This document shows, one piece after another, positions 4,706 through 32,857 of a stretch of DNA of 48,262 nucleotides (position 1 is its first letter; the number at the start of each line of letters is the position of its first letter). Position numbers and translations under genes: made by a program. The DNA comes from a virus, in the IMG/VR virus record IMGVR_UViG_3300043433_000039, positions 1 through 48,262 of that record; one strand, given 5' to 3'. Below the pieces are notes generated by a model, which worked only from the letters and a program-made list of their open reading frames with translations, had not been told where the DNA came from and did not search any database.

Positions 4706-6349
4706 ATGGCTGTCCATTTTGTTGACGCGTTTGAGCGACTGAGTGGCTGGAATGCTTGGTGGCAAACGTCAGAGAGCTGGAGCAGCGTAGGGCCTAAAGA
4801 TGTCTCGAATCGTCTAAGGGATGCCAATAGTGGCGCGTCTGAAGTCATAACGGCTCAGGACGCGCCATCTTCTTCATCCGTGTTCGTGGCCGCGTCTGTC
4901 AATACAGGCTCTGCTGTCGATGGCGTTTCCGGTGGGGCGGCAGGGTATTCCTCTCAGTCAGATTCTTCCTTGGCGTTTGATAGCGGCATGGCAAGCTCAA
5001 ACGTGGCTTCGGTTACAACTGAGTCGGCGTCACCGGTTGATGAGTTAATACTTGTCGCGTCTTTTGTTGCTAGTTGTGCGGAAACCGTCTTTTCGGGAGC
5101 CTTGGAAAGCGCCAATCAAATAGCCAGTGCCAAATCCGACAATGGAGGTGATGCGCTTGATACCGCAACTGCAAGTCAGGCGTCAAAGTCATTGGCTACC
5201 GATCCGTGCACGGCAGTGGACAGCGCCACGGCTGTTTTTTCTGCCGTTGCAATAGCTGATTCACAAGCCAATCCCGTTGATTCGATTGTTGCCAGTGCGG
5301 AAACAAATGGTAGTGACGTTGCAGGTGCTTCGGCGGTTGATTTATCGTCCTCGGTAGCGACAAGGTTTGTCGCAATAGTCTCATGGGCCACGCCTTCAGA
5401 CACGTCGTCTTCCAAGGCTGACCATTCGGCAATTCACTTTGAAAGCATACCGCTGGCATTGGATGGATTATCCGGAGTTGTATCGTTCAATGGGTTAATC
5501 GCTGAAGCCACAAACGCGCTCAGCAACGAAGCGGCGCTTTCGGTCAATGTCGCTGCATTAACCGAATCCGCGGGTGCCGGAGACGCTATTTCGGCGGTTA
5601 TGTTTGCCTTGGCGTCGATTGCTAGTGATTTAGCGGCCAGCGATGTTGCTCTGGGCAGAACCAACGTGTTCGGCAACGCCCAGTCCTCATTGAGCGCTAT
5701 AGACGATCAGTCTGGGCTTGCCTCGTCCTTTGCCGAAGGTTCTGACCTGCTAGAACCAGCGGATGCCACCACAGGTCGCACTTTATCGTCTGCAACCAGC
5801 CGAGAAAGCGTCGCCTCAAACGACGTTCAGTCTGCAATATCAAACCTCAACGGGGTCGCAAAAGAGGTTTCCAGGGCATCGGATAGTGAGTCAGCCTCAG
5901 CTATTTTGTACGCTTTGCAAACAGACGCGGCCACTGGTAAGGATGTTGTAGTTGGCAGGCTTGTCTTGACTGCCGGAGACGCTTCGTTTGCCGTTGCGGA
6001 TTCCGATGCTTCGGGTAGGTCGGCGCTATCAGCAAGAAGCTCAGAGCAAATCACTGCGGCGGATACGGTTTTCGCAAAGGCTTTCGCGGTCGCCTCTACT
6101 GATGAGGTTTCTAAAGCGCTTGAGGAGGCAAGAGGTATCGCATCATGCGCTGCCATTGTCGAGGCCACAAACGCCGCTGGCGATGTTGTTAGATACATTG
6201 AGGTTGCAGCGGGCGATAACGGGCGGTTGATTGTGGCCTTATTTGATACGCGCAGATTTGCAGGAGAGACCGCTTCCAGGGATGTCACAAAAGCCGTTAA
6301 TTTGCGCAAATTCAAAAAAACAACTACCGGTCGTGGCTTCTTGTCGTGA
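4706..6349 (+). CDS. Ala/Ser/Asp-rich repetitive virion-like protein
   Basis: A 547-residue protein with AAGGTGG upstream. After a short aromatic N-terminus (LSGWNAWWQTSESW), the remaining roughly 500 residues are Ala, Ser, Val and Asp with irregular repeats in which short hydrophobic strands alternate with ESA-, AVD- or ATD-like turns. The last 25 residues are basic. Such degenerate repeats suggest an elongated, repetitive fold, either beta-solenoid or helical, as in fibres and decoration proteins. I do not recognise a named family. It lies between connector genes and its end carries promoter-like element copy 4. Confidence 0.6.
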   Translation: MAVHFVDAFERLSGWNAWWQTSESWSSVGPKDVSNRLRDANSGASEVITAQDAPSSSSVFVAASVNTGSAVDGVSGGAAGYSSQSDSSLAFDSGMASSNVASVTTESASPVDELILVASFVASCAETVFSGALESANQIASAKSDNGGDALDTATASQASKSLATDPCTAVDSATAVFSAVAIADSQANPVDSIVASAETNGSDVAGASAVDLSSSVATRFVAIVSWATPSDTSSSKADHSAIHFESIPLALDGLSGVVSFNGLIAEATNALSNEAALSVNVAALTESAGAGDAISAVMFALASIASDLAASDVALGRTNVFGNAQSSLSAIDDQSGLASSFAEGSDLLEPADATTGRTLSSATSRESVASNDVQSAISNLNGVAKEVSRASDSESASAILYALQTDAATGKDVVVGRLVLTAGDASFAVADSDASGRSALSARSSEQITAADTVFAKAFAVASTDEVSKALEEARGIASCAAIVEATNAAGDVVRYIEVAAGDNGRLIVALFDTRRFAGETASRDVTKAVNLRKFKKTTTGRGFLS

Positions 6350-6358
6350 CGGTACTTT
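6343..6358 (+). promoter_or_regulatory. GTCGTGAC-type promoter-like element, copy 4
   Basis: GTCGTGAC, GG, then the hexamer TACTTT. It overlaps the last codons of the repetitive protein gene. The predicted start near 6365 gives a 23-base leader to the ATG at 6388, which has only a weak ribosome-binding site. Confidence 0.5.
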
Positions 6359-6387
6359 ATCCATAATCTACTGATCGGGTTCTGGCT

Positions 6388-7473
6388 ATGGCAATTTTTG
6401 CTAATCAAAATAACGGATTTGTCGAGCAAGACAAAAATGCACTTCTTGATTATTCACAGGACTGGACTGATTTTATTGTCGGCAGTGATTCGATTGAGAA
6501 TAGCGTCTGGTCTGCTGATTCGGCTGACATTGTTCTTTCAAACGCCTTGGTTTCCGGTGCTGTTACAACGATATGGGTAACCGGAGGAATCGCTGGCAAC
6601 ATGTACCGCATCACAAATTCCGTGCTGTCTACACAGGGCCGCAGGGATGTCAGATCGTTTGTGTTGATGGTTAGTGATGTAGGCGCTCAACCTATAAAGC
6701 CAGTCAAAACCGCATTTTTCAATCGCTTCACTTCCATTGCTGAATTTAAGCGCGAGAGCCTGGCGTTTCTGGACAAGTCGTTCCCCGTAGACAACCTAAC
6801 CGACGAATACATTTGGGATAGCCTGGTATCAGCAGAAGCCGATGCCAGCCGCCGACTGCGTACTTTCTTTGAGCCGACAGTAGTAATCCCAGACGACGCT
6901 CCTGCCGACGAGGTTAATAGGCTAATCGCGGCGGGCACAAAGTTTGTCCAAGAGGCTGCATACGATTATGAGCCTAACGCCTGGGGTGGAGACGGTTGGG
7001 GCTTCATGATTCTGCGTAAAACCCCGGTGGTAAGCATTGAATCGGTTATCTTTAGCTATCCGAAACCGGGTAGCAACATTCTCAACGTCAACCCTGATTG
7101 GGTGCGACTGGATCACAAATACGGCCACGTTAGATTTGTTCCGTCGGGTCCAATGATGGCGTATGGCCCGGTTTCATTCTTTCTGATGTCGGCCATTGCT
7201 GCCGGTCGGCACATTCCGGGCATGATTGGCGTCCGTTATACATCTGGCCTGAAGAATGCCGCGCAGGACTTCCCGGACCTGGTAACGGTAATTAAACGGA
7301 TGGCAATTCTTCGCATCCTTAAAAACGCATTTTTACCGCAGTCGAGTTCGATTTCTGCCGACGGACTATCTCAATCCACATCGGTCGATGTTGGAAAGTG
7401 GGAGGAGGGCATTGAACATTCGTTGGATACCCTCAATCAGTCGATCCACGGTATCCGTTTCGGGGTGTTCTAA
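6388..7473 (+). CDS. Head-tail adaptor-like structural protein
   Basis: A 361-residue protein. The first 100 residues (LLDYSQDWTDFIVGSDSIEN, later GGIAGNMYRITN and GRRDVRSFVL) form a small beta domain seen at the front of several phage connector proteins. The rest is helical and includes FKRESLAFLDKSFPVDNLTD and IKRMAILRILKNAFLPQ, like adaptor proteins that bind under the portal. It is followed 4 bp later by a neck gene. The role as head-tail adaptor is inferred from order and general layout. Confidence 0.6.
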   Translation: MAIFANQNNGFVEQDKNALLDYSQDWTDFIVGSDSIENSVWSADSADIVLSNALVSGAVTTIWVTGGIAGNMYRITNSVLSTQGRRDVRSFVLMVSDVGAQPIKPVKTAFFNRFTSIAEFKRESLAFLDKSFPVDNLTDEYIWDSLVSAEADASRRLRTFFEPTVVIPDDAPADEVNRLIAAGTKFVQEAAYDYEPNAWGGDGWGFMILRKTPVVSIESVIFSYPKPGSNILNVNPDWVRLDHKYGHVRFVPSGPMMAYGPVSFFLMSAIAAGRHIPGMIGVRYTSGLKNAAQDFPDLVTVIKRMAILRILKNAFLPQSSSISADGLSQSTSVDVGKWEEGIEHSLDTLNQSIHGIRFGVF

Positions 7474-28321: not shown

Positions 28322-30463
28322 ATGGTAGTAGATAACCGCTCTCAATGGATTAACCTTGCGCTACCAGACGCAGCGAACAAGCTGTCGGACGATGTTTTGC
28401 GTCTGGTTTCCTCTCTAAACACGATTGATGCCCAGATTCACGCAATCAATCTGATTTTGCAGTCGAACGACGTCAACTTTGACTCGGTTCAGGAAATTGT
28501 TGACAGGCTAAAATCAATTCCAGCCTCTCAGCCGCCGTTGGTTTCTGGCGAAAACATTAAAACAATAAATGGCAATTCCTTGCTGGGGTCTGGCGATATT
28601 GTTATATCGGCCGGTGCCGCTGTCACCATTACCGGCAACCTGTCGATCTACGTCACGCAAAGCACCACGCTGACGATTACCAACTACGACTCCGCCACGA
28701 CTTATACCGTCTCGGCCACGGGCGGTACAGTGTCGCGCACGGGCGATACGATCACCTATACCGCTGGCAGCACGGCAGGCACGTTTGCGATTGATGTCAC
28801 GGCAGGAGACGCAATCCGCTCGGTCGCCATTACGGTCAACGCTGCCTCAGTGTCAGCCCCGACCATTACCAGCCCAAGTAGCGGCGCAACCGGTATCGGT
28901 CAAACGCCGACCATCACGACCAGCGCCTTTGCCACGATTGGCCTGTCGGATACGCACCTCAACACCGATTGGGAAGTGCGCACCGCTGCTTCGGGTGGCG
29001 GCACGCTGATTACCTCATCGTCTGCCGATGCCACCAATAAGACCAGTTGGACAGTGCCTGGTAACTTGCTGGCGACTTCCACCACGTACTACGTCCGCGC
29101 CCGTCATCGCGGCACGACACTGGGCGCTGGTGGCTGGGGTGAATCCAGCTTTACAACGGCGGCCACGTTTGGCGGCCTGATCGGTACACAGGGCGGGCAG
29201 GGCTTCGGGGTCGGCGTTTATCTCGGTACGCTGCCGTCTGGCTTTTCAGCACTGACCGGCACCACGGATAAGGCCTCGGCCAACTATGGCAACTATCAGT
29301 ATTCCGATGGTTCTATCATGGTCTTTGTGCCGAAGTTCTTTTACCGCATCGGCAATGCCAGCAGCCCACGCTACGCTACCTATGGCGCAAATGCCATCGA
29401 TATTGCGGGAATTGATGCGTATGCCAGCGAATCGGCAGCTAATGCGGCGGGTTACGCCATGCACCGGGCTTTCTACGATGGCGGCGCGGAAAAGTCTGGC
29501 TTCTTTATCGACAAGTATCTGGCCTCTAAAAACGGCACGACTAGCTGCAAATCCATTCAGAACGGCAACCCGATTTCGCTGACGACGAACGCCAGCTATA
29601 ACCCGTCAAGCGGTATGACCGGCTGCACGGGTATTCTGGCCGATGCCGTTGTGCTGGCACGCAGTCGCGGCGCGGGTACGTTTAACGTGGCCTCAATCTT
29701 TATGTATGACGCGCTGGCCAAGCTGGCACTGGCTCATGCACAGGCCAGCAGCAATACGACCTATTGCGCCTGGTATGACGCAACCAATAATTTCCCGAAG
29801 GGCTGCAATAACGGCTCGCTGGCTGATACCAATGATAGCTCTGTGACATTTACCGCTGCGTACTCAGCAAAACCGCTTACCGGTTCGGCCTCTAATCTGG
29901 CCAAGACCACCCACAACGGGCAGAGCTGCGGTGTCACCGATGTTAACGGGGCTTTGTGGCAGGTGATGCTGGGTCTGACGCAAGCCGGAACCTCGGCAAC
30001 GGATACAACAGCCATCACCACAGGTAATGCGTACACTTTGAAACGTAGCGTGGCGCTGGCCAGCCTGACTGGCGGTTTTGGCGGGGCTACCGATGCCTGG
30101 GGAACCACCACCAACCTTGCTACCAACTACGACCTAACCAACGGCTTCCTGCCTTGGGGCGCTACAACCGGCTGGAACTACTTTGGCAGCGGCAGCAACG
30201 CGGTATTTAGCGGGGCGACCAGCGGTACGGACTACTTGCGCTCTTGCTCAGGTATTGCCGCGCTGACCGGCATGGATGCTGCGGGCACCAGCCAGTTTGG
30301 TAATGACGGCAACTACCAGTACGGCACCGCAAACCTTTTCCCGATCGCGTCCGGCCGCTGGGGTGACGCCGCTGGTGCGGGGGTGTTCTACCGTTACTGG
30401 TACTTCAACCGGTCGACTGACCACTACATCATTGGCTTCCGGGCTGCCGCCTATGGATCGTAA
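28322..30463 (+). CDS. DGR-diversified tail fibre / receptor-binding protein
   Basis: A 713-residue protein with AAGGAA upstream. Residues 1-95 are a helical attachment region. About 95-180 is an Ig-like domain (VTITGNLSIYVTQSTTLTIT) and about 180-285 a fibronectin-like domain ending in YYVRARHRGTT. From about 290 on comes a C-type-lectin/formylglycine-enzyme-like fold (MVFVPKFFYRIG, FFIDKYLASKNG) that ends in the DGR pattern with GFRAA. Residues 672-711 are the variable region; 12 codons there correspond to A-containing codons open to change. It is the tail tip that contacts the host surface and the target of the retroelement. Confidence 0.9.
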   Translation: MVVDNRSQWINLALPDAANKLSDDVLRLVSSLNTIDAQIHAINLILQSNDVNFDSVQEIVDRLKSIPASQPPLVSGENIKTINGNSLLGSGDIVISAGAAVTITGNLSIYVTQSTTLTITNYDSATTYTVSATGGTVSRTGDTITYTAGSTAGTFAIDVTAGDAIRSVAITVNAASVSAPTITSPSSGATGIGQTPTITTSAFATIGLSDTHLNTDWEVRTAASGGGTLITSSSADATNKTSWTVPGNLLATSTTYYVRARHRGTTLGAGGWGESSFTTAATFGGLIGTQGGQGFGVGVYLGTLPSGFSALTGTTDKASANYGNYQYSDGSIMVFVPKFFYRIGNASSPRYATYGANAIDIAGIDAYASESAANAAGYAMHRAFYDGGAEKSGFFIDKYLASKNGTTSCKSIQNGNPISLTTNASYNPSSGMTGCTGILADAVVLARSRGAGTFNVASIFMYDALAKLALAHAQASSNTTYCAWYDATNNFPKGCNNGSLADTNDSSVTFTAAYSAKPLTGSASNLAKTTHNGQSCGVTDVNGALWQVMLGLTQAGTSATDTTAITTGNAYTLKRSVALASLTGGFGGATDAWGTTTNLATNYDLTNGFLPWGATTGWNYFGSGSNAVFSGATSGTDYLRSCSGIAALTGMDAAGTSQFGNDGNYQYGTANLFPIASGRWGDAAGAGVFYRYWYFNRSTDHYIIGFRAAAYGS
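30335..30454 (+). repeat. DGR variable repeat (VR)
   Basis: A 120-bp segment in frame with the fibre and ending 9 bp before its stop. Aligned without gaps to TR (30917-31036), it differs at 17 positions: 16 where TR has A (replaced 4 times by C, 5 by G, 7 by T) and one G-to-T at the third base of the first codon. An A-free stretch of 18 bases near the 3' end is unchanged and fits the initiation-of-homing site. Confidence 0.97.
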
Positions 30464-30469
30464 CTTGAA

Positions 30470-30489
30470 GGCAGGGCGATAGCCCTGCC
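30470..30489 (+). other. DGR hairpin downstream of VR
   Basis: GGCAGGGC and GCCCTGCC form a perfect 8-bp GC-rich stem with the loop GATA, 15 bp after VR. In the Bordetella BPP-1 DGR a hairpin or cruciform with a short GC stem and a four-base loop just after VR promotes target recognition. Position, stem length and loop size fit. It could also act as a weak terminator, but no T tract follows. Confidence 0.8.
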
Positions 30490-30499
30490 CTACTAAATT

Positions 30500-30898
30500 A
30501 TGAAACCTAACCCAGAAGCCGCCATTCTGCATAAATGCCGAGAGCTCATCATGCAGCTGAATGTGAACCTGAATCACTTTCCGCGTCATGAGAAGCACGG
30601 CCTATGCCTGCAAATCCGTAATTTAGCCTATGGCGTACTGAAGGGGCTGGTGGAGTGCGAGAAACGCTATCACAACAAAACTAGCCTAACCCGGCTGGAT
30701 GTGGAGCATGAGCAACTGCGCACGCTGGTCAATCTCTCATTTGAAATGGGGTATTTCGGCTACCACCACCATAAATCAACGCGTAGCGATGCCGAATCGC
30801 TGCGCCGTTATACCGCCGTCTCGATCCTGCTCAACGAGCTAGGGGCGATGATCGGCGGCTGGATTCGGAGTCTGCGGGTTATCCCGCAGGCCGAATAA
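30500..30898 (+). CDS. avd: DGR accessory variability determinant (Avd)
   Basis: A 132-residue, basic, all-helical protein located between VR and TR, as in BPP-1. It contains LNVNLNHFPRHEKHGLCLQI and ends near LLNELGAMIGGWIRS, the hallmarks of the Avd four-helix bundle that assembles as a barrel-shaped pentamer, binds the reverse transcriptase and TR RNA, and is needed for retrohoming. The ATG has no obvious ribosome-binding site, so expression may be low or depend on the upstream hairpin region. Confidence 0.9.
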   Translation: MKPNPEAAILHKCRELIMQLNVNLNHFPRHEKHGLCLQIRNLAYGVLKGLVECEKRYHNKTSLTRLDVEHEQLRTLVNLSFEMGYFGYHHHKSTRSDAESLRRYTAVSILLNELGAMIGGWIRSLRVIPQAE

Positions 30899-30916
30899 GG
30901 GCGGGCCATTATCATG

Positions 30917-31036
30917 CTGTTCCCGATCGCGTCCGGCAACTGGAATGACGCCGCTAAAGCGGGGGTGTTCTACCGTAACTGGAACAACAACCGGTCGAAT
31001 GACAACAACAACATTGGCTTCCGGGCTGCCGACTAT
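30917..31036 (+). repeat. DGR template repeat (TR)
   Basis: The 120-bp master copy, just after avd and 121 bp before the RT gene. It has 30 adenines, mostly as AAC/AAT codons when read in the fibre frame. AAY codons mutated at A never become stops; a single AAA codon is the exception. TR is transcribed and copied by the RT with random bases opposite A. The 31037-31157 stretch is the expected RNA spacer used for priming and protein binding. The open frame across TR is not considered a gene. Confidence 0.97.
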
Positions 31037-31157
31037 ATCGCTGCTTCCGACCTGAAATTCCATCAAGGAAATACTGGCGAAATAGGGATGGCACCGTCCT
31101 GCAATATGGCGAAATCTGCCGGGATTGGCTTTTTAGTACCAACGTGGAACGTCAGCC

Positions 31158-32159
31158 ATGCCTAAACGATACGGCCACCTCTACGAGCAGATGTTCACGC
31201 TCGATGCGCTGCACGAAGCGTATTTGCGCTCCCGTGACCGTAAGCGCAAGAAATCGGCTGTGCGTAAGTTTGAGATCAATCTGGGTGCCAACCTGCAAAA
31301 GCTGCACGATGAGCTAAGCAACGGCACCTATGAGCCACGGCCTTATAAGACTTTCTACGTCTTTGAGCCAAAGCCGCGTCTGATCCACGCGCCGCATTTC
31401 CGCGATGTGGTGGTGCAACAGGCGATGTACCACGTCCTCTATCCGCTGGTGGATAGCCGCCTCTGCTTTGAGAGCTACGGCTGCCGCAAGTTCAAAGGCA
31501 CGCACCGCGCTGCCGACCGGGCGCAGCATTTTCTGCGCGAATCGCCGCCGGATAGCTACCTGCTGCAACTAGACATTCGCAAGTTCTTCTACCGGATTGA
31601 TCGGGATATTCTGCTCAGTCAGTGGCGCAAGATCATCAAAGACGAGCGCGTGCTGGCCTTGCTGGCCGAGTTTGCCAAGTATCCGGCAGACGCCGGGGTG
31701 CCGATTGGCAACCTGATGAGCCAGATCGCTGCACTGATCTACCTGAACCCGCTGGATCACTTCATCAAGCGGGAACTCAAAGCAGAGCGCTATGTGCGCT
31801 ACGTCGATGATTTCATCCTATTTGGCATGACCAAAGACGAGGCCATTAAAACCCGCGACCAGATCATTGTCTGGCTGGCTGAACACCTAAAGCTGGAACT
31901 GTCCCGCTGGACAATCCAGCCGGTGAAACGGGGACTGAACTTTGTCGGCTTCCGTACCTGGCGCAAAACCCGCTTTGTACGCAAGCACAGCCTCTATACC
32001 TACAGCAAGGCGCTGCGCCGTGGTGATATGGACAGCGTGATTAGCTGCCTTGGCCACGCCAAAGCCAGCGGCACGCACAAACACTTTATGAACCGGCTCC
32101 GGGAATACCCGGCGCTCTACGACCAACTGCCTGACACCATGAAACGAGGCCAGCCATGA
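31158..32159 (+). CDS. rt: DGR reverse transcriptase
   Basis: A 333-residue protein with the RT motifs in order: RLIHAPHFRDVVVQQAM (about 74-90), LDIRKFF with catalytic Asp 139, VPIGNLMSQ (181-189), which has the DGR-type xGxxxSQ form, and YVDD (215-218). It lacks maturase, integrase and RNase H parts, as DGR enzymes do. It copies TR RNA with adenine-directed errors. The stop overlaps the next start (ATGA). Confidence 0.96.
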   Translation: MPKRYGHLYEQMFTLDALHEAYLRSRDRKRKKSAVRKFEINLGANLQKLHDELSNGTYEPRPYKTFYVFEPKPRLIHAPHFRDVVVQQAMYHVLYPLVDSRLCFESYGCRKFKGTHRAADRAQHFLRESPPDSYLLQLDIRKFFYRIDRDILLSQWRKIIKDERVLALLAEFAKYPADAGVPIGNLMSQIAALIYLNPLDHFIKRELKAERYVRYVDDFILFGMTKDEAIKTRDQIIVWLAEHLKLELSRWTIQPVKRGLNFVGFRTWRKTRFVRKHSLYTYSKALRRGDMDSVISCLGHAKASGTHKHFMNRLREYPALYDQLPDTMKRGQP

Positions 32160-32563
32160 GCAGCATTTACAAATACCGCCGTATTACGACCGAAGGGCCG
32201 AACGGCACCACGCTCTATTTCAAAAACGCTGACGAAGGCGACCGCGCTCTGGAATTGGCCGAAGTCGCTGGCTGGCATTACGTGAGCGTACCGGAAACCG
32301 CCCAACTGCCAGCACAGCCTACCGAGATTGAGTGGCAAGCCGTAACGCTCGACGCGGAGAACAAAGCCAGCATTATGGCCAGCAGCCGCGCCGTGCAACT
32401 GATTAACCAGGGCGTCGTTGACCAGATCCGCGCCCTGTACTCAGTCGATGACGAGCTGAAGCTGCTGCGGACTGCGCCTAGCGCCGAATTTGAGGCATAC
32501 AACGCCCACGCTGAGGATTGCCGGGCATGGGGCAGGGCAGAGAAAGCGAAGCTGGGGCTGTGA
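32156..32563 (+). CDS. RT-coupled protein of unknown function
   Basis: A 135-residue protein whose ATG overlaps the RT stop, so the two are co-translated. The N-terminal 60 residues are mixed (YKYRRITTEGPNGTTLYFKN, ALELAEVAGWHYVSVPE); the C-terminal half is helical and charged (VVDQIRALYSVDDELKLLR) and ends in RAWGRAEKAKLGL. It resembles small proteins that follow tail fibre genes and may help fibre assembly. Coupling to the RT makes a DGR accessory role an alternative. A terminator follows directly. Confidence 0.65.
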   Translation: MSSIYKYRRITTEGPNGTTLYFKNADEGDRALELAEVAGWHYVSVPETAQLPAQPTEIEWQAVTLDAENKASIMASSRAVQLINQGVVDQIRALYSVDDELKLLRTAPSAEFEAYNAHAEDCRAWGRAEKAKLGL

Positions 32564-32698: not shown

Positions 32699-32772
32699 GG
32701 TGCGTTAGCAAATCGGTTATGCCCTGGATTGCAAATCCAGTTAGCCCAGTTCGACTCTGGGACGCACCTCCA
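32699..32772 (+). tRNA. tRNA-Cys (anticodon GCA)
   Basis: A 74-base cloverleaf: acceptor GGTGCGT with ACGCACC, anticodon stem CTGGA with TCCAG around loop TTGCAAA (GCA at 32731-32733), T arm CCCAG-TTCGACT-CTGGG, and an encoded TCCA end with discriminator T, as in bacterial tRNA-Cys. All stems pair. It could supply Cys decoding to the phage. Lying next to the integrase, it, or its 3' half, could also relate to the attachment site. Confidence 0.93.
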
Positions 32773-32857
32773 GAGCAGTTTTTGAGGCAGGTTGGTTGTC
32801 CGGGTGGTTTATCCGTTGAAACCCAGCGTGGATACGGAAGTCACCGGATTGCAAATC
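32726..32857 (+). repeat. 12-bp direct repeat of the tRNA-Cys anticodon arm; candidate att region
   Basis: GGATTGCAAATC occurs at 32726-32737 inside the tRNA and again at 32846-32857, 120 bp on. The region between has a TATCC/GGATA inverted repeat and looks like a decayed type II tRNA, but its acceptor and T stems do not pair. Tyrosine-integrase phages often carry attP beside int and overlapping tRNA sequence, so this is a reasonable att candidate, not proof. Confidence 0.4.

Follow-up and report, generated by a model that had tools for sequence, protein, structure and literature searches.

A complete and probably functional diversity-generating retroelement in a temperate myophage, with an open reading frame running through its template repeat

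The tail fibre gene of this virus is followed by genes and repeats that look like a diversity-generating retroelement (DGR), which raises the question of whether the element is complete and working, and how its reverse transcriptase (RT) comes to be made. The window (the whole stretch of DNA that we analysed) is 48,262 bases long and comprises positions 1–48,262 of a linear IMG/VR virus record, IMGVR_UViG_3300043433_000039. It encodes a tail sheath protein (match 4e-72) and a baseplate wedge protein (1.5e-30), which are proteins of contractile-tail phages, as well as integrase, repressor, RecT-like and replication genes, and we therefore assign it to a temperate myophage. The window ORFs scanned with PHROGs included neither a terminase nor a portal gene, and the linear record may thus lack a part of the genome. 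At 6388–7473, near the head genes and far from the tail module, lies a gene for another fibre-like protein (phrog_772, 2.9e-19). An Rfam search returned one tRNA and no other match. A tRNA-Cys gene adjoins the integrase gene (32699–32857); its anticodon-loop stretch GGATTGCAAATC is repeated at 32846–32857, and this repeat may mark an attachment site.

A preliminary description, made from the DNA letters, had proposed a complete DGR of the BPP-1 type in a myophage, with all parts in one orientation. We found that the fibre gene with its variable repeat (VR), the hairpin, avd, the template repeat (TR) and the RT gene all lie on the plus strand, and the tail sheath and baseplate wedge matches bear out the phage type. 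The extent that had been proposed, 28322–32563, was too generous: the DGR parts occupy 28322–32159 as described, and an ORF inside the 3' boundary (32156–32563) is not part of the DGR.

The target of the DGR is the fibre gene (28322–30463, plus strand, 713 aa), which we characterized by AlphaFold modelling, Foldseek and a profile match. In the AlphaFold model, built from an alignment of 33 sequences (mean pLDDT 81.8), residues about 100–175 are Ig-like, residues 181–280 are FN3-like and residues 287–713 form a CLec fold. The top Foldseek match of the model is TaqVP, a Thermus DGR variable protein (PDB 5vf4, E 1.3e-13), and Ig-FN3 tandems come next; thus, the earlier reading of a fibre that combines Ig-like, FN3-like and lectin-like domains holds. 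The sequence profile of the fibre has TaqVP as its single match (2.6e-8), with the VR end included. The VR therefore sits at the C-terminus of a CLec-fold target whose top structural and sole sequence-profile match, TaqVP, likewise has a CLec fold with a C-terminal VR; however, the two proteins are only about 15% identical where their folds align, and the phage fibre adds Ig, FN3 and anchor parts. Among relatives, the CLec part is shared and the N-terminal part is exchanged.

The two repeats, VR at 30335–30454 and TR at 30917–31036, align over 120 bp without a gap and differ at 17 positions, 16 of them TR adenines, which reproduces the counts first given for this locus. Adenines make up 30 of the 120 TR bases, and the enrichment of differences at adenines (Fisher p = 7e-11) rules out a chance repeat as the source of the likeness. 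The sole difference that is not at an adenine (G at 30919 in TR, T at 30337 in VR) is base 3 of the repeat as reported, and an unbroken run of identity starts at the next base (TTCCCG, 30920/30338). We therefore regard it as an edge effect and place the core VR at 30338–30454, in the last codons of the fibre gene, and the core TR at 30920–31036, both on the plus strand; within this true repeat, every TR/VR difference has an adenine in TR. One of the 16 adenine differences, A at 31032 in TR to C at 30450 in VR (GAC versus GCC), is fixed in identical form at 73 loci of the clade and is thus an IMH*/IMH-type mark, not a product of mutagenesis. Accordingly, 15 of the 16 adenine differences reflect mutagenesis; they fall in 10 codons and are changes to T, G and C.

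Downstream of the VR, 7 nt past the fibre stop codon, lies a hairpin or cruciform (30470–30489, plus strand; GGCAGGGC-GATA-GCCCTGCC, fold –18.6 kcal/mol). Its GC-rich 8-bp stem and GATA loop, of the GRNA class, agree with the DGR hairpin consensus of a 7–10 bp stem and a 5'GRNA loop (PMC3240598). The avd gene (accessory variability determinant; 30500–30898, plus strand, 132 aa) matches Pfam bAvd at 59.9 bits (4e-16; cut-off 40) and the PHROG "Avd protein of DGR" at 3.6e-22. The RT gene (31158–32159, plus strand, 333 aa) matches the PHROG RT family at 1.6e-99, and when it is aligned with Brt of BPP-1 and further phage DGR RTs its motifs IGNLMSQ and YVDD are intact, in keeping with the (I/L)GxxxSQ and YxDD of DGR RTs. 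A profile of close RT relatives finds the solved BPP-1 RT chain 8ub7_A as its best match (2.8e-68; the chain was identified as BPP-1 by its sequence), and among annotated phage RTs that of Pseudomonas phage Bise is closest (50% identity). We ruled out a group II intron RT, a retron and an antiviral RT, for which NCBIfam matches were all far below cut-off.

Between TR and RT lies a spacer (31037–31157, plus strand), the 5' part of which pairs with the 3' end of TR in a covarying helix. In 12 close relatives, this helix and an inner hairpin are common to all, with all 11 pairs kept, so that a structured spacer follows TR. We counted 17 double-change cells in these pairs, a value reached in 0 of 500 shuffles, and sliding controls were near 0. 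In BPP-1, the structured spacer has been reported to recruit RT-Avd (PMC12875486), and the covarying helix of the window fits such a spacer.

The DGR of the window has the order and orientation of that of the Bordetella phage BPP-1 (mtd-avd-TR-brt); both have Avd, a spacer and a GRNA-loop hairpin, in both the changes are confined to adenines, and the RTs are of one family. In contrast, the RT of the window is 35% identical to that of BPP-1, and its fibre has Ig and FN3 domains. In phage Bise (OR683401), baseplate J, fibre, a four-helix protein (Avd), TR and RT follow in the same order as in the window, and 9 of 9 TR/VR differences are at adenines, the same bias as in the window.

Metagenomic surveys have catalogued DGRs widely (PMC8144416). 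Neither RT scans with single sequences nor an exact VR pattern gave a match; relatives surfaced when we used alignment queries, which found 583 related loci among viral contigs and 409 among genome contigs, of which we kept 80 each. With hundreds of relatives, the DGR is therefore ordinary in kind. Among the roughly 80 viral loci kept, gene order, spacing and adenine bias recur almost without exception. Over about 5.1 kb, three of these loci (L043, L045 and L046) are identical, with at most one change in the longest comparison, and their VRs differ from one another at 10, 14 and 18 sites, every one of which is an adenine in TR. These comparisons show that the lineage is active, and from these relatives we infer DGR activity in the window's own phage.

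Several other loci showed individual features. In L087, a possible second VR lies 5 kb away (200–314 and 5221–5334), with TR adenines at 19 of the 26 differences. L214 and L219 have near-identical fibre regions, with 19 of their 25 differences over 3.7 kb in the fibre VR (about 2780–2895), and L191 and L227 likewise have near-identical fibre regions with differences almost confined to the VR. No RT was found on the contigs of these four loci, which are incomplete, and either a DGR acts on them from elsewhere or it was recently lost. In L013, the RT (6001–7020) has one in-frame stop, which is a defect or an assembly error. In L205 (2804–2920), the fibre stop is followed by a hairpin-like stretch, a short stub of the 5' end of avd and then the start of the ORF that lies beyond RT in the window; this resembles the scar of a deletion that removed the DGR.

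We conclude, with a probability of roughly 93%, that the DGR of this temperate myophage is complete and probably works. By analogy with published work on BPP-1, Avd and RT would bind the structured spacer RNA and copy the TR RNA into cDNA, making errors at adenines. With the IMH end and the GATA hairpin as guides, this mutated cDNA would then take the place of the VR in the last codons of the fibre gene, and new residues would arise in the CLec-fold fibre tip, altering phage binding and possibly host choice. It is very improbable that the element is instead a relic whose parts are intact but idle and whose VR-TR differences record past activity. Damaged or lost cassettes do occur among related loci, as in the interrupted RT of L013 and the avd stub of L205; however, in the window all DGR parts and the catalytic motifs are intact and VR changes are confined to adenines, and close lineages are diversifying now.

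The ORF directly beyond RT, orf135 (32156–32563, plus strand, 135 aa), adjoins the DGR. In 47 relatives it lies 3' of RT, and for this reason we suspected an additional DGR protein. However, it also lies directly 3' of the fibre gene in contigs where no RT was found, which rules out that role; we therefore assign orf135 to the fibre rather than to the DGR, perhaps as an assembly partner. The family, which is linked to DGR-type fibres, was not found in Pfam, PHROGs or annotated phages. Its fold, predicted with high confidence (pLDDT 94.8), has no PDB match and one unnamed BFVD match (A0A516LIE3, 8.5e-5).

In addition to these parts, the ORF list contains an open frame of 83 codons that runs through the template (TR-ORF; 30914–31165, plus strand). 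Its ATG lies 6 nt upstream of the core TR, it is in the VR frame and open across TR and spacer, and its stop TAA overlaps the RT start (ATGCCTAA). BPP-1 has neither an in-frame TR ATG nor a spacer that is open into the RT start, whereas the window has both, and in Bise the TR frame is closed by a stop 117 nt upstream of RT. A TR that overlaps the RT ORF has been described as group 3 (PMC3521204). In DGRs of the VHML type (Vibrio phage VP58.5, Pseudoalteromonas ACA1 and Aeromonas phiARM81mr), reading TR in the VR frame leads into RT, as it does in the window. In those DGRs, however, TR is fused in frame to RT, whereas in the window the TR-ORF is a separate ORF that overlaps the RT start by 8 nt in a frame different from that of RT, so that TR is not within the RT reading frame as in the DiGReF group 3 or VHML type. 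A literature search, which covered few subscription papers, found no description of a separate coupled TR-ORF.

We surveyed this frame in 69 loci, thinned to RTs with less than 80% identity, and took the expectation from a Markov model. In the VR frame, the spacer is free of stops in 47 of the 69 loci; the remaining frames are open in 17 and 10, and 15.6 ± 3.3 would be expected. An ATG at the TR edge is present in the VR frame in 52 of the 69 loci, as compared to 9 and 14, and the open spacer and the in-frame ATG co-occur (p = 7e-6). The frame stops at the RT start, with ATGA or ATGCCTAA there; some relatives instead carry an in-frame fusion of TR and RT, in the manner of VHML-type phages. The close clade is mixed, with spacer stops present in some relatives, which speaks against coupling of this frame to RT synthesis. 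We found no excess of third-codon-position differences in the spacer, which rules out a conserved protein as the TR-ORF product; the frame is thus kept and the peptide is not. Because the frame is kept while the peptide is unconserved, these data suggest, as the simplest reading, that translation of RT is coupled to ribosomes that cross the template.

The reading that follows, to which we give a little less than even odds, is that in a large clade of phage DGRs, including that of the window, the template RNA would be a messenger too: the ATG at the TR edge and the open frame would pass ribosomes to the RT start (or TR would be fused to RT), and synthesis of RT would need translation of the template. 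Anti-Shine-Dalgarno pairing is stronger at RT starts of the closed class than at those of the overlap class (p = 0.003 when corrected by shuffling); in raw energy the contrast has p = 0.12, and it therefore supports coupling weakly. In BPP-1, a signal at the end of avd stops reverse transcription (PMC12875486), and the motif upstream of the TR-ORF ATG may serve cDNA termination of this kind instead.

The open frame could also be a by-product, a possibility that we take seriously at below even odds: TR would be open because it is the template of a coding region, and the spacer would be open by chance, composition or common descent. Relatives are not independent, and on the RT tree the open-frame state is clustered, yet it changes many times; the spacer RNA is structurally constrained, and the missing third-position excess also fits a by-product. 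However, the frame-specific excess survives thinning to RTs with less than 55% identity (8 of 14 loci open, as compared to 4 and 3 in the other frames; expected 2.5 ± 1.3), longer spacers of 150–252 nt are likewise open in the VR frame, and none of 12 cellular DGRs with TR upstream of RT has an open frame between them. It is unlikely that translation of the TR frame serves to shield the transcript from Rho-dependent termination upstream of RT rather than to deliver ribosomes. Shielding would account for an open frame without peptide conservation; alone, however, it leaves unexplained why the frame ends right at the RT start or in fusion to RT.

The element provides a full example of a DGR that targets a myophage fibre of CLec fold, and public viral and genome contigs hold hundreds of relatives from its clade. 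DGRs of this kind are well known; comparison with relatives suggests one detail for which we found no description, namely that the template RNA usually also contains an open frame that leads into the RT gene. In E. coli, the BPP-1 cassette in its native form showed hardly any activity, and the likely reason named was the lack of a clear ribosome binding site upstream of brt (PMC12875486). If the TR-ORF is translated, this would explain how these phages produce RT when the RT gene itself has no strong ribosome site. A template that doubles as messenger would tie the level of RT to that of the template and would act as a switch between translation and reverse transcription, and it would become possible to test directly how ribosome and reverse transcriptase compete for a single RNA.
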